64,000 nucleotides of DNA, from contig NZ_CM001442.1 of the NCBI RefSeq assembly GCF_000244915.1, positions 7,685,012-7,749,011 of the forward strand, in the 5' to 3' direction. The notes beneath the pieces were generated by a model that did no database searches, was not told the origin of the DNA, and saw only the letters and a program-made list of their open reading frames with translations. Position 1 is the first letter of the stretch, and each line of letters starts with the position of its first letter. Source of the DNA: Bradyrhizobium sp. WSM471. GTDB taxonomy: Bacteria; Pseudomonadota; Alphaproteobacteria; Rhizobiales; Xanthobacteraceae. The translations under genes were made by a program, and so were the position numbers. This document shows, one piece after another, positions 16,291 to 54,462 of the stretch.

Positions 16291-16423
16291 GTCGTCCTGG
16301 ACAAGCGCAGCGCAGATCCAGGACCCATTGGCCCGGCGAGGAGTTTGGTGGTAACTCGTAGTTTCGAGCATCGCACCACAACCTTTCCCTGGGGTAATGG
16401 GTCCTGGCTTTCGCCAGGACGAC
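16291..16423. repeat. Intergenic palindrome, family B (GTCGTCCTGGACAAGCG type), intact
   Basis: It begins GTCGTCCTGGACAAGCG and ends CTTTCGCCAGGACGAC, with inner GATCCAGGACCCAT and ATGGGTCCTGG. It separates emrB from the kinase-like gene (convergent). Bases 16320-16333 (AGGACCCATTGGCC) are the exact reverse complement of 29161-29174 in the IS110-family non-coding region, so this is an unoccupied potential target site. Confidence 0.88.
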
Positions 16424-28965: not shown

Positions 28966-29010
28966 GTCGTCCTGGACAAGCGAACGGAGTGAGCGCCGAT
29001 CCAGGACCCA
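28966..29010. repeat. Family B palindrome, left half, split by the IS110-family element
   Basis: It begins GTCGTCCTGGACAAGCG-type sequence and ends GATCCAGGACCCA at the IS boundary. Its other half resumes at 30405 (ACCACAGG) and ends GCCAGGACGAC near 30517. The intact member at 32815-32963 reads GGGACCCATAACCACAGG across the same point. Confidence 0.8.
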
Positions 29011-29026
29011 TATGTGGACGGCCCCC

Positions 29027-29278
29027 GTGGCACAAGAGCTTAGTGAGGTTTGATCGGATCGCTTGCATCCATATGTCCGGCCTGTTGATGCGGCTTTGTC
29101 GGACCGCTGGCCAAGATGGTTTTCGCGACACGAGTTCCAATCACCCATGCGACCTTATTCGGCCAATGGGTCCTACGGATTTGCTCGCATCTCGAACGAT
29201 CGATCGCACCATCTCCTCTGCTCTTGCAGCTCCGGTTCGGCCGGTGGGGCTAACCCGCCGGTCGGCCGAATCTTTCGA
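29027..29278 (-). ncRNA. Candidate bridge RNA (seekRNA) region of IS110-family copy 1
   Basis: This non-coding stretch lies between the transposase stop and the inverted repeat, where IS1111-type elements carry their guide RNA. Read on the minus strand it contains AGGACCCATTGGCC (29174-29161), whose first nine bases equal the sequence flanking both insertions. The segment 29171-29143 folds as a hairpin: ACCCAU pairs with AUGGGU and GGCC with GGUC. The G-U pair exists only in the minus-strand transcript, favouring RNA on the transposase strand. ACATATGG at 29076-29069 resembles the joined ends of the element (ACATA from one end, TGATGG from the other). RNA boundaries are not visible. Confidence 0.65.
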
Positions 29279-30328
29279 TCACACGGCAGCGGCCGTTTGG
29301 GCCTCGTTTTGCGCCCCTAGCCGCGCGCGATCGTATTGCTCTCCCGTCGTCATCAGCTTCCAGGCGATGCGGGCCATCTTGTTGGCCAGCGCCACCGCCG
29401 CCAGCTTCGGTGTTTTGCGCTTCAAAAGCTCGATCAGCCAGCTCGGCCCACGAGCTTTCGATTTGGCGATCTTGACCACCGAAGTTGCCCCAAGCACCAG
29501 CAGCTGACGCAAGGTCTCATCGCCTGCACGGGTTATCTTGCCGAGCCTGGTCTTTCCCGCGGTGGAATGGTCCTTTGGGGTCAGGCCGAGCCAGGCGGCA
29601 AACAGCCGTCCCGAGCGGAAGGCGTGAGGATCGGGTGCCTTCATCACCAGTGCTGCGGCGGTGACCGGACCGATCCCCGGGATCTGAGCCAAACGACGGC
29701 TCAAGGCATTGGCACGGTGCCAGGCGAGAAGCTTCGCCTCCACTGCCTTCAGCTCGACCTGCACCTGATCATATTGGCGGGCAAGCGTCGCAAACAGTTC
29801 GCGGGCCAGCGTCGGCACCCTTTCATCGTGCTCGATTGCGGCCAGGAACGAGACCAGCTTGTCCAGCCCCTTGGCCTCGATCAGACCGAACTCCGCCGCA
29901 TAGCCGCGGATCATGTTGGAAAGTTGAGTGCGTCGCACGACCAGTTGTTCGCGGATGCCCAGCAGCATCAGCGCGGCCTGTTGCTCGGCGGTTTTCACCG
30001 GCACATAGCGCATCCGCGGCCGGCTCGCCGCCTCGCACAGCCCCTCTGCATCGCGCCCATCGTTCTTATTGCGCGCCACGTAGGGTTTCACCAGCTGCGG
30101 AGCGATCAGCTTGGCTGTGTGTCCCAGCTTACCTAGCTCTCGCGCCAGGACGTGAGCCGCCCCACACGCCTCGATCACCACCACCGTCGGCGGCAGCTTG
30201 GCAAAGAACTCCAGCATCCCCTTGCGGCCAAGCCGTTTGCGCAGCACGACCTGCTCCGAGGCATCCACCCCATGCAGTTGAAAGATATACTTCGACGTAT
30301 CCATCCCAATGCGGATAATCTGGCTCAC
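29279..30328 (-). CDS. IS110-family transposase (DEDD plus Tnp20), copy 1
   Basis: The 349-residue recombinase has an N-terminal RuvC-like domain with D10 (GMDTSK), E53 (VVVIEACG), D90 and D93 (NKNDGRDAEG), a coiled-coil middle and a C-terminal Transposase_20 domain with IPGIGPVTAAALV and the probable nucleophile S255 (KDHSTAGK). The start is the GTG at 30328, preceded by AGGAG 6 bases upstream; longer frames into the inverted repeat are not needed. It inserts circular IS DNA at sites matched by a guide RNA. The protein is identical to that of copy 2. Confidence 0.93.
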   Translation of the reverse strand: MSQIIRIGMDTSKYIFQLHGVDASEQVVLRKRLGRKGMLEFFAKLPPTVVVIEACGAAHVLARELGKLGHTAKLIAPQLVKPYVARNKNDGRDAEGLCEAASRPRMRYVPVKTAEQQAALMLLGIREQLVVRRTQLSNMIRGYAAEFGLIEAKGLDKLVSFLAAIEHDERVPTLARELFATLARQYDQVQVELKAVEAKLLAWHRANALSRRLAQIPGIGPVTAAALVMKAPDPHAFRSGRLFAAWLGLTPKDHSTAGKTRLGKITRAGDETLRQLLVLGATSVVKIAKSKARGPSWLIELLKRKTPKLAAVALANKMARIAWKLMTTGEQYDRARLGAQNEAQTAAAV

Positions 30329-30543
30329 GGACGGCTCCTGTGAATGAGTTTCTGACAACCTCATTCTGGCACACTGATGCCGTAGGGGGCCGTCCACACC
30401 ATCAACCACAGGCTTCGCTGTGTTAGACGGTCGTAGTCGCCAGTATCGCGACACAATCGGCGTCGGGGATAATGGATCCTGGCTCCAGTGCGCAGTTGCG
30501 CACAAGGCCAGGACGACACCGATTGTTGGACTGCGGTCGCGCC

Positions 30544-51034: not shown

Positions 51035-51050
51035 TATGTGGACGGCCCCC

Positions 51051-51302
51051 GTGGCACAAGAGCTTAGTGAGGTTTGATCGGATCGCTTGCATCCATATGT
51101 CCGGCCTGTTGATGCGGCTTTGTCGGACCGCTGGCCAAGATGGTTTTCGCGACACGAGTTCCAATCACCCATGCGACCTTATTCGGCCAATGGGTCCTAC
51201 GGATTTGCTCGCATCTCGAACGATCGATCGCACCATCTCCTCTGCTCTTGCAGCTCCGGTTCGGCCGGTGGGGCTAACCCGCCGGTCGGCCGAATCTTTC
51301 GA
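51051..51302 (-). ncRNA. Candidate bridge RNA (seekRNA) region of IS110-family copy 2
   Basis: Identical to 29027-29278. The target-like guide is at 51198-51185, the hairpin at 51195-51167 and the junction-like ACATATGG at 51100-51093 (all on the minus strand). See the copy 1 entry for the reasoning. Confidence 0.63.
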
Positions 51303-52352
51303 TCACACGGCAGCGGCCGTTTGGGCCTCGTTTTGCGCCCCTAGCCGCGCGCGATCGTATTGCTCTCCCGTCGTCATCAGCTTCCAGGCGATGCGGGCCA
51401 TCTTGTTGGCCAGCGCCACCGCCGCCAGCTTCGGTGTTTTGCGCTTCAAAAGCTCGATCAGCCAGCTCGGCCCACGAGCTTTCGATTTGGCGATCTTGAC
51501 CACCGAAGTTGCCCCAAGCACCAGCAGCTGACGCAAGGTCTCATCGCCTGCACGGGTTATCTTGCCGAGCCTGGTCTTTCCCGCGGTGGAATGGTCCTTT
51601 GGGGTCAGGCCGAGCCAGGCGGCAAACAGCCGTCCCGAGCGGAAGGCGTGAGGATCGGGTGCCTTCATCACCAGTGCTGCGGCGGTGACCGGACCGATCC
51701 CCGGGATCTGAGCCAAACGACGGCTCAAGGCATTGGCACGGTGCCAGGCGAGAAGCTTCGCCTCCACTGCCTTCAGCTCGACCTGCACCTGATCATATTG
51801 GCGGGCAAGCGTCGCAAACAGTTCGCGGGCCAGCGTCGGCACCCTTTCATCGTGCTCGATTGCGGCCAGGAACGAGACCAGCTTGTCCAGCCCCTTGGCC
51901 TCGATCAGACCGAACTCCGCCGCATAGCCGCGGATCATGTTGGAAAGTTGAGTGCGTCGCACGACCAGTTGTTCGCGGATGCCCAGCAGCATCAGCGCGG
52001 CCTGTTGCTCGGCGGTTTTCACCGGCACATAGCGCATCCGCGGCCGGCTCGCCGCCTCGCACAGCCCCTCTGCATCGCGCCCATCGTTCTTATTGCGCGC
52101 CACGTAGGGTTTCACCAGCTGCGGAGCGATCAGCTTGGCTGTGTGTCCCAGCTTACCTAGCTCTCGCGCCAGGACGTGAGCCGCCCCACACGCCTCGATC
52201 ACCACCACCGTCGGCGGCAGCTTGGCAAAGAACTCCAGCATCCCCTTGCGGCCAAGCCGTTTGCGCAGCACGACCTGCTCCGAGGCATCCACCCCATGCA
52301 GTTGAAAGATATACTTCGACGTATCCATCCCAATGCGGATAATCTGGCTCAC
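51303..52352 (-). CDS. IS110-family transposase, copy 2
   Basis: The 349-residue protein is identical to the copy 1 transposase, with D10, E53, D90, D93 and S255. The GTG start at 52352 has AGGAG 6 bases upstream. Both copies look intact, so the element should be capable of transposing. Confidence 0.93.
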   Translation of the reverse strand: MSQIIRIGMDTSKYIFQLHGVDASEQVVLRKRLGRKGMLEFFAKLPPTVVVIEACGAAHVLARELGKLGHTAKLIAPQLVKPYVARNKNDGRDAEGLCEAASRPRMRYVPVKTAEQQAALMLLGIREQLVVRRTQLSNMIRGYAAEFGLIEAKGLDKLVSFLAAIEHDERVPTLARELFATLARQYDQVQVELKAVEAKLLAWHRANALSRRLAQIPGIGPVTAAALVMKAPDPHAFRSGRLFAAWLGLTPKDHSTAGKTRLGKITRAGDETLRQLLVLGATSVVKIAKSKARGPSWLIELLKRKTPKLAAVALANKMARIAWKLMTTGEQYDRARLGAQNEAQTAAAV

Positions 52353-52612
52353 GGACGGCTCCTGTGAATGAGTTTCTGACAACCTCATTCTGGCACACTG
52401 ATGCCGTAGGGGGCCGTCCACACCATCACCCCAAGGGATCGTTGGTGCACGAGCTGATAGCCACCAGTCCTCGTCAAACTTTGCCCTGTGGCAATGGTCC
52501 TGGATCTGCGCTTCGCTTGTCCAGGACGACGGCGGAGCACGGAACCGCTCTCGCTCTTAACACTTATCACGCAGCCGCCGCACCTCGGCGGAACCACCGA
52601 GGCTGCGCGCGC

Positions 52613-54330: not shown

Positions 54331-54462
54331 GTCGCCCTGGCGAAAGCCAGGACCCACTACCCCAATCGCTCGTTGTCGTTCGAAGTGAAAACTACGAATT
54401 TTCGCGAAACCACTCCCTGGGGTAATGGGTCCTGGATCTGCGCTTCGCTTGTCCAGGACGAC
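54331..54462. repeat. Intergenic palindrome, family B, intact
   Basis: GTCGCCCTGGCGAAAGCCAG at the left and CTTGTCCAGGACGAC at the right, with inner CCAGGACCCACTACCCCAAT and CTGGGGTAATGGGTCCTGG. It lies between the convergent GH13 genes and shows the undisturbed form of the IS copy 2 target. Confidence 0.88.

Follow-up and report, generated by a model that had tools for sequence, protein, structure and literature searches.

The window analysed here, a stretch of 64,000 nucleotides from the genome of Bradyrhizobium sp. WSM471, contains two copies of an insertion sequence (IS) of the IS110 family, and their sequence makes it highly probable that this element belongs to the IS1111 group and that the non-coding region downstream of its transposase gene encodes, on the transposase strand, a seekRNA, a guide RNA resembling the bridge RNAs. 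Two segments of this region match the two halves of the site that the element occupies, and among related elements both change together with the flanks. The site is the outer edge of a repetitive extragenic palindrome (REP). An original prediction from the sequence of the window had proposed an IS1111-type guide RNA with specificity for a dispersed palindrome; the proposal survives the covariation test and is supported, the palindrome being a CGTC-tagged REP.

The transposase (348 amino acids) matches the NCBIfam family NF033542 (E=3.7e-93; 312 bits against a cut-off of 140) and has both Pfam domains, PF01548 and PF02371; the Tas endonuclease profile (TIGR-Tas) scores 29 bits on it, below the family threshold of 100. 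Its features agree with the IS1111 group as described in passages of PMC11187229: the protein lies within the size range of 330-350 amino acids and its GLTPKDHSTA fits the motif GL-P----S(t)G, which occasionally ends in TA; non-coding sequence, repeats counted, amounts to 265 nucleotides downstream of the transposase gene versus 72 upstream; and the subterminal inverted repeats are perfect, 13-14 bp long and followed outwards by short extensions.

The 7.78-Mb genome has eight copies of the element, two of them in the window. Six are identical and full-length, one is trimmed at its right end and one (locus L008) is 85% identical; a REP edge is found in at least one flank of each of the eight. 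Read in transposase orientation, the left junction is GGGGTGA in six of the eight copies and GTGGTTGA and AAATCTGA in the remaining two, the right junction is TATGGGTCCTGG in six and TATGGGTCCCGG in one, with the right end missing in one, and the commonest occupied site is GGGGTGATGGT-[element]-ATATGGGTCCTGG. At L007 (G000:C1:7177200-7178585) the right extension and the adjoining target bases are gone between two GTCC repeats, leaving GGGGGCCGTCCTGG. Beyond this strain, the non-coding region is found at E<=1e-20 in 20 of 146 sampled Bradyrhizobium genomes, this genome counted.

The sequence CCAGGACCCA precedes both element copies (at 29001 and 51025); the window has six occurrences of it, where 0.08 would be expected. 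GGCCAATGGGTCCT lies in the non-coding region at 29161-29174, and its complement AGGACCCATTGGCC equals 16320-16333 at 14 of 14 bases. The sequences quoted in the original prediction are confirmed at their positions; it had read the 14 bases as one guide. A guide is indeed present there, but it is nine nucleotides long: the last five bases of the match (TGGCC) form a conserved apical stem that is found in most relatives whatever their target, and because they belong to this stem the 14-base match is partly luck. A second guide, GGGTGAT, had been missed. On the RNA strand AGGACCCAT (29174-29166) comes first, followed by 19 more nucleotides and then by GGGTGAT (29146-29140). The former is complementary to the top strand of the target (T guide) and the latter to the bottom strand (B guide); passages of PMC11187229 report this order for IS1111 seekRNAs.

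We infer that the region is transcribed into an RNA to which the transposase binds. In the right half of the target, the 5' guide AGGACCCAT would then pair with the top strand, and in the left half the 3' guide GGGTGAT would pair with the bottom strand, both at the outer edge of the CGTC-tagged REP palindrome, and the enzyme, acting as a recombinase, would catalyse the joining of a circular form of the element to this target.

The order of the guides also bears on the kind of RNA. A bridge RNA of the IS110 group (IS621-type), with separate target and donor loops, would be compatible with the shared transposase superfamily and with a conserved motif, GGACATATG, that repeats the right-end sequence and tracks the junction dinucleotide in two elements. 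Such an RNA is nevertheless extremely improbable, given the downstream position of the non-coding region, the long repeats and the top-strand guide in front of the bottom-strand guide: the IS110 group in the strict sense has, according to passages of PMC11187229, the reverse guide order and a mostly upstream placement of the RNA, neither of which is found here.

Guides and targets among relatives

Relatives were taken from one genome per species: the best 80 of 141 loci, with transposases 55-90% identical, were combined with the eight copies of this genome. Both ends were located in 69 of these 88 loci; 20 loci were dropped, 19 because not both ends were found and one because its left flank was shorter than five bases, and the 68 usable ones represent 53 distinct targets. 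L007, L065, L078 and L081 were removed before the column scan (49 elements), and then L021 (48 elements). Most relatives share the repeats, the left extension TG[T/A]TGG and the right extension ATA. In L021 the right end is tandemly duplicated, with a second right-end repeat 64 bases past the first.

Words shared between the non-coding regions and their own flanks are longer than in shuffled pairings, with the longest words summing to 321 versus 251.2 (standard deviation 5.5) for T and 249 versus 223.7 (standard deviation 4.5) for B, each with 0/10,000 shuffles. When every alignment column was compared with every flank position, no position being preset, the seven best hits all fell on two diagonals: columns 97-99 equal left-flank positions -10 to -8, and columns 61, 62, 64 and 65 the complement of right-flank positions 10, 9, 7 and 6; columns 95, 96, 63 and 66 follow lower within the top 40. 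With fixed columns, the 48 elements with distinct targets (four from this genome) match their right flank in 265 of 288 cases (shuffled 115.3) and their left flank in 195 of 240 (shuffled 76.1), both with 0/20,000. When each distinct right target is represented only once (n=26), the counts are still 140 versus 53.7 for T and 111 versus 39.3 for B, each 0/20,000. The guides covary with the target, as described for IS1111 seekRNAs, and the covariation on which the original prediction depended is there: relatives at unrelated targets carry, with few exceptions, segments that match their own flanks.

These relatives also bear on the explanation that recognition of the REP is the work of the transposase protein alone and that the segment in the non-coding region is a captured piece of REP or a target-like terminator hairpin. 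The T guide does contain the REP edge and the region folds strongly, as this would have it; however, related transposases at non-REP targets carry target-matching segments at the same two positions, with opposite senses for the two sides, and compensatory changes keep the RNA stems while the guides vary, and we regard recognition by protein alone as very improbable.

Retargeting can be followed in single elements. L008, in the same genome, has its 3' guide changed to TTTCTGAT and its left flank changed to AAATCTGAT; a relative on a Bradyrhizobium plasmid (transposase 90.5% identical) has the T guide TGCGACCCA with the right flank TGGGTCGC, and the left guide TGCGGTG with the left flank TGCGATG. 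At the level of sequence, altered guides of related elements that match their own landing sites fit the mechanism described in 2024. When flanks are joined at the shared dinucleotide (mostly TG; CG in L077 and L080), several junctions fall inside coding frames; in L056, L063 and L068, for example, the frame ends with LLP on the left and resumes with WNW or WEW on the right. Ten one-sided frames, picked from 13 loci as coding-looking and hence a non-random sample, were scanned with Pfam. In L053, L056, L063 and L068 the IS66 C-terminal element reaches profile position 38/39 at the junction and the flanks meet inside it with no duplication; the junctions of the REP clade are ambiguous. From such junction genes some guides seem to be aimed at other mobile elements: the remaining junctions lie in IS66 (L058), in a Mutator-type (L026) or ISL3-type (L051) transposase gene and in an alpha/beta hydrolase gene (L048), HTH_21 in L050 is just below the cut-off, and the frame at L057 has no Pfam hit. 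Counted over the ten selected frames, seven match transposase families above the cut-off (five IS66, one Mutator, one ISL3).

Several observations weigh against the reading of the two segments as guides. The 8th, 10th and 12th hits of the column scan are off the diagonals; they rest on rare letters. Matches are weak for T in L072 (3/6) and in L077 and L080 (2/6; by eye, the alignment is one base off), and for B in L008 (2/5) and L011 (1/5; by eye, the left end was called one base off). In Microvirga copies AG or GG takes the place of TG at the right junction. Among other Bradyrhizobium copies (30 loci, two of them without an anchor in flank extraction) the left guide shows only a partial fit in some, for example L128, L130, L142 and L146, and a good fit in L121, L134 and L144; the printed flanks and guides of L144 are the same as those of L017 (Bradyrhizobium liaoningense), and L127 matches L010 (Bradyrhizobium sp.). 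In the Microvirga copies the left and right junction dinucleotides disagree. AG or GG right junctions are those of the Microvirga sp. VF16 copies L028-L035, L037, L039, L081 and L082. A further repeat-like sequence, TGTGGACGGCTCCC, is present in the left flank of L031, L032, L034, L035 and L037; together with the AG or GG junctions this suggests insertion beside a related element or a mismatched junction.

A donor-side guide in GGACATATG is possible but thinly supported. The motif reads ACATACG in both CG-junction elements among the 48 (L077 and L080), where CG is the junction dinucleotide and recurs in both guides as well as in the downstream ACATAYG motif. Against such a guide speaks that the pattern comes from two elements and has one exception, L044, with ACATATA at the motif despite a TG junction.

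Fold of the downstream region

The folding energy of 29012-29278 is -108.8 kcal/mol (z=-3.76 versus shuffles). The conserved hairpin within it (Table 1) was defined from the minimum free energy (MFE) structure of a 101-nucleotide stretch and from an alignment of 34 sequences, which are the window copy and 33 of 35 chosen loci (L012 and L072 were omitted). Standard pairs fill 95.5% of the cells in the consensus stems, a percentage that is biased, the alignment scored being the one that yielded the structure; sliding the partners out of register lowers pairing to 28-42%. Cells changed on both sides number 40, versus 9.0 in shuffles (0/500), indicating compensatory changes in the stems, and this count is large even though the 34 aligned sequences are related. 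The region is thus predicted to be a folded RNA with a conserved stem, as is typical of an IS1111 seekRNA.

The two guides are the facing sides of the internal loop between the UCC/GGA stem and the apical stem. A fold had been anticipated in the original prediction and covariation supports one, but the guide had been assigned to one side of a hairpin with the pairing ACCCAU/AUGGGU, and here the prediction has to be amended, since this helix between the guides is not conserved: it has six pairs in the window copy and only three to four in the relatives nearest to it, L009-L014. In the alignment of 34 sequences the longest guide-to-guide helix ranges from three to six pairs (six in L048 too). 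We take the ACCCAU/AUGGGU pairing to follow from a direct repeat in the target and do not count it among the features of the RNA.

Recombination between element and REP through homology of the DNA, with no RNA involved, has a minimal probability. Sequence identity alone would look the same for DNA and RNA, but the two guides match opposite strands, and what speaks for a folded RNA is that the stems change in pairs and that the scaffold is conserved around loops that vary. At gathering thresholds no Rfam family matched in the window, though IS1111 seekRNAs were published in 2024; therefore no known covariance model was usable and this check is uninformative.

Table 1. Positions in the window of the element, its predicted RNA and its targets. 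Guide coordinates of copy 2 were derived from the offset of +22024 between the copies.
Feature	Position	Strand	Remarks
Transposase gene, copy 1	29279..30325	-	348 aa; IS110-family RNA-guided transposase; DEDD N-terminal domain and Transposase_20
Downstream non-coding region including right-end repeat; encodes the predicted seekRNA	29014..29278	-	Folding; position downstream of the transposase gene as in IS1111 (PMC11187229)
T guide AGGACCCAT	29166..29174	-	Complementary to top strand of right target half (ATGGGTCCT); columns 61-66 covary with right flank
B guide GGGTGAT	29140..29146	-	Equals top strand of left target half, so pairs with bottom strand; columns 95-99 covary with left flank
Conserved GGACATATG	29070..29078	-	Repeats right-end and junction sequence ACATA-TG; possible donor-side guide
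Conserved guide-bearing hairpin	29127..29191	-	MFE of 101-nt stretch and 34-sequence alignment
Hairpin outer stem	29191-29184/29134-29127	-	
Hairpin UCC/GGA stem	29179-29177/29138-29136	-	
Hairpin apical UGGCC/GGUCG stem	29165-29161/29154-29150	-	
Right-end subterminal inverted repeat	29014..29026		GGGGGCCGTCCAC on transposase strand
Left-end subterminal inverted repeat	30385..30397		GTGGACGGCCCCC on transposase strand
Right target flank	29001..29010		CCAGGACCCA on +; junction dinucleotide 29009-29010
Left-end extension and start of left target flank	30398..30409		Extension ACCATCA on +, 30398-30404
Copy 2	51035..52428	-	1389 bases identical between the copies; guides at 51190-51198 (T) and 51164-51170 (B)
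Uninterrupted pair of CGTC-tagged REP palindromes, target type	16318..16407		
Uninterrupted pair of REP palindromes, same type	54347..54435		

REP targets and the junction

The target palindrome has 122 copies in the genome that follow one stem pattern, CGTCCTGGC(2-4)GCCAGGACC. Judged by its sequence it is a CGTC-tagged REP, placed with those of PMC3733652 because its end reads CGTC.

In relatives outside the REP clade the junction follows one rule: the left side reads NNNNN-TG, the right side reads TG-right, and the flanks, once joined, are in frame. Applied to the REP clade, this rule would need empty sites xxxTGGGTCC, but the REPs seen there are mostly longer; that the rule fails to give the commonest empty sequence at the REP counts against the proposed guide-RNA mechanism. 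The 49 sites of this genome, found with a pattern that takes only sites starting GGGGT, comprise 34 GGGGTAATGGG, seven GGGGTGATGGG, two GGGGTGGG and six others; in four other genomes, where the pattern takes only sites ending GGGTCCCGG, the matches listed mostly read xxxTATGGG or xxxTTATGGG. Three junction models can be compared with these sites: (i) a target xxxTGATGGG accounts for 7/49 sites here, and the forms required for L012 and L017 for 0/16 and 0/24 in their genomes; (ii) a target xxxTGGG accounts for 2/49 here and again for 0/16 and 0/24; (iii) insertion at xxxT^ATGGG accounts for 8/16 and 3/24 in the genomes of L012 and L017 and for 0/49 here.

Model (iii) fits the sister-species sites of copy L002. 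Four loci were taken per such site, and for L002 three of the four have the REP edge (GTGG[CT]TATGGATTCC); because the sister edge reads this way, the right half at L002 differs from GGGTCC. For L003 it is likewise three of four, with the spacers TAAT, TTAT and ATTAT, and L099 adds GGGGTAATGGG. Full-length REP edges are thus found at the sister-species sites of two copies.

The idea that shortened REPs (xxxTGGG) are scars left by excision was rejected: the short pattern is found in 3/20 genomes that carry the element, defined by the non-coding region at the threshold given above, versus 40/126 without it, and is therefore not generally tied to the element. Its GCCAGGACCCACCCC form occurs three times among the matches listed from the 146 genomes, two of these here, and the commoner form GCCGGGACCCACGCC may include chance matches; the pattern also misses some REP variants.

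The REP clade may have a shifted junction, may lose bases when it inserts or may favour rare variants of the target. We consider it possible, though doubtful, that the crossover of the REP-targeting Bradyrhizobium clade is shifted relative to the rest of the family. The guides of the clade fit the common REP (xxxT-ATGGGTCC) only if UG of the left guide pairs with TA through a G-T wobble. With a shifted crossover the occupied sites would imply, a consequence that we hold just as tentatively, a circle junction with 8 rather than 10 bases between the repeats, or the loss of 2-3 target bases. If true, the two guides of an IS1111 element could drift in register relative to each other, and such elements could remodel the repeats that they use.

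Relation to known systems

From sequence only, the data confirm for a large alphaproteobacterial lineage of IS1111 elements that the guides have two parts, and the many natural retargetings (to REPs, to IS66, Mutator-family and ISL3 transposase genes and to others) are ready pairs of guide and target. No description of this element was found in open-licence literature on REPs together with IS1111, Bradyrhizobium or IS110, looked through mostly by listings.

That elements of the IS110 family target REPs has long been known: passages of PMC1525189 report REP insertions for 7/7 copies of ISPpu9, 7/7 of ISPpu10 and 4/4 of ISRm19. The element described here shares this habit with them; they differ in that they use other REP families, and the passages of PMC1525189 give no RNA mechanism. 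CGTC-tagged REPs are reported from Bradyrhizobium too, apparently without a dedicated transposase (passages of PMC3733652). The target here has the CGTC end that defines this class, which is now linked to a probably RNA-guided element landing in it; the element inserts into these REPs, and there is no sign that it moves them.

With the IS621 bridge RNA (passages of PMC11208160) the predicted seekRNA shares guides for both target halves, a REP target and a recombinase with DEDD-type and Transposase_20 domains. Unlike the element here, the IS110 group has its RNA at the other end and short repeats, and the donor loop is only a candidate in our element. The same source predicts bridge RNAs in 93.0% of IS1111 elements.

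The closest likeness is to ISPa11 and the other IS1111 seekRNA elements in passages of PMC11187229, where ISPa11 targets the REPs of P. aeruginosa with a seekRNA. The seekRNAs of this group are transcribed, processed to 70-100 nt and co-purify with the transposase, and its elements are described as inserting through a circular intermediate and leaving the target unduplicated. Shared with our element are the non-coding region behind the transposase gene, the subterminal repeats, the size of the transposase, the order of the guides (complement of the top strand first) and the choice of a REP target. Our element differs in that its RNA is predicted, it belongs to an alphaproteobacterial lineage, and it lands in a CGTC-tagged REP instead of a Pseudomonas REP.
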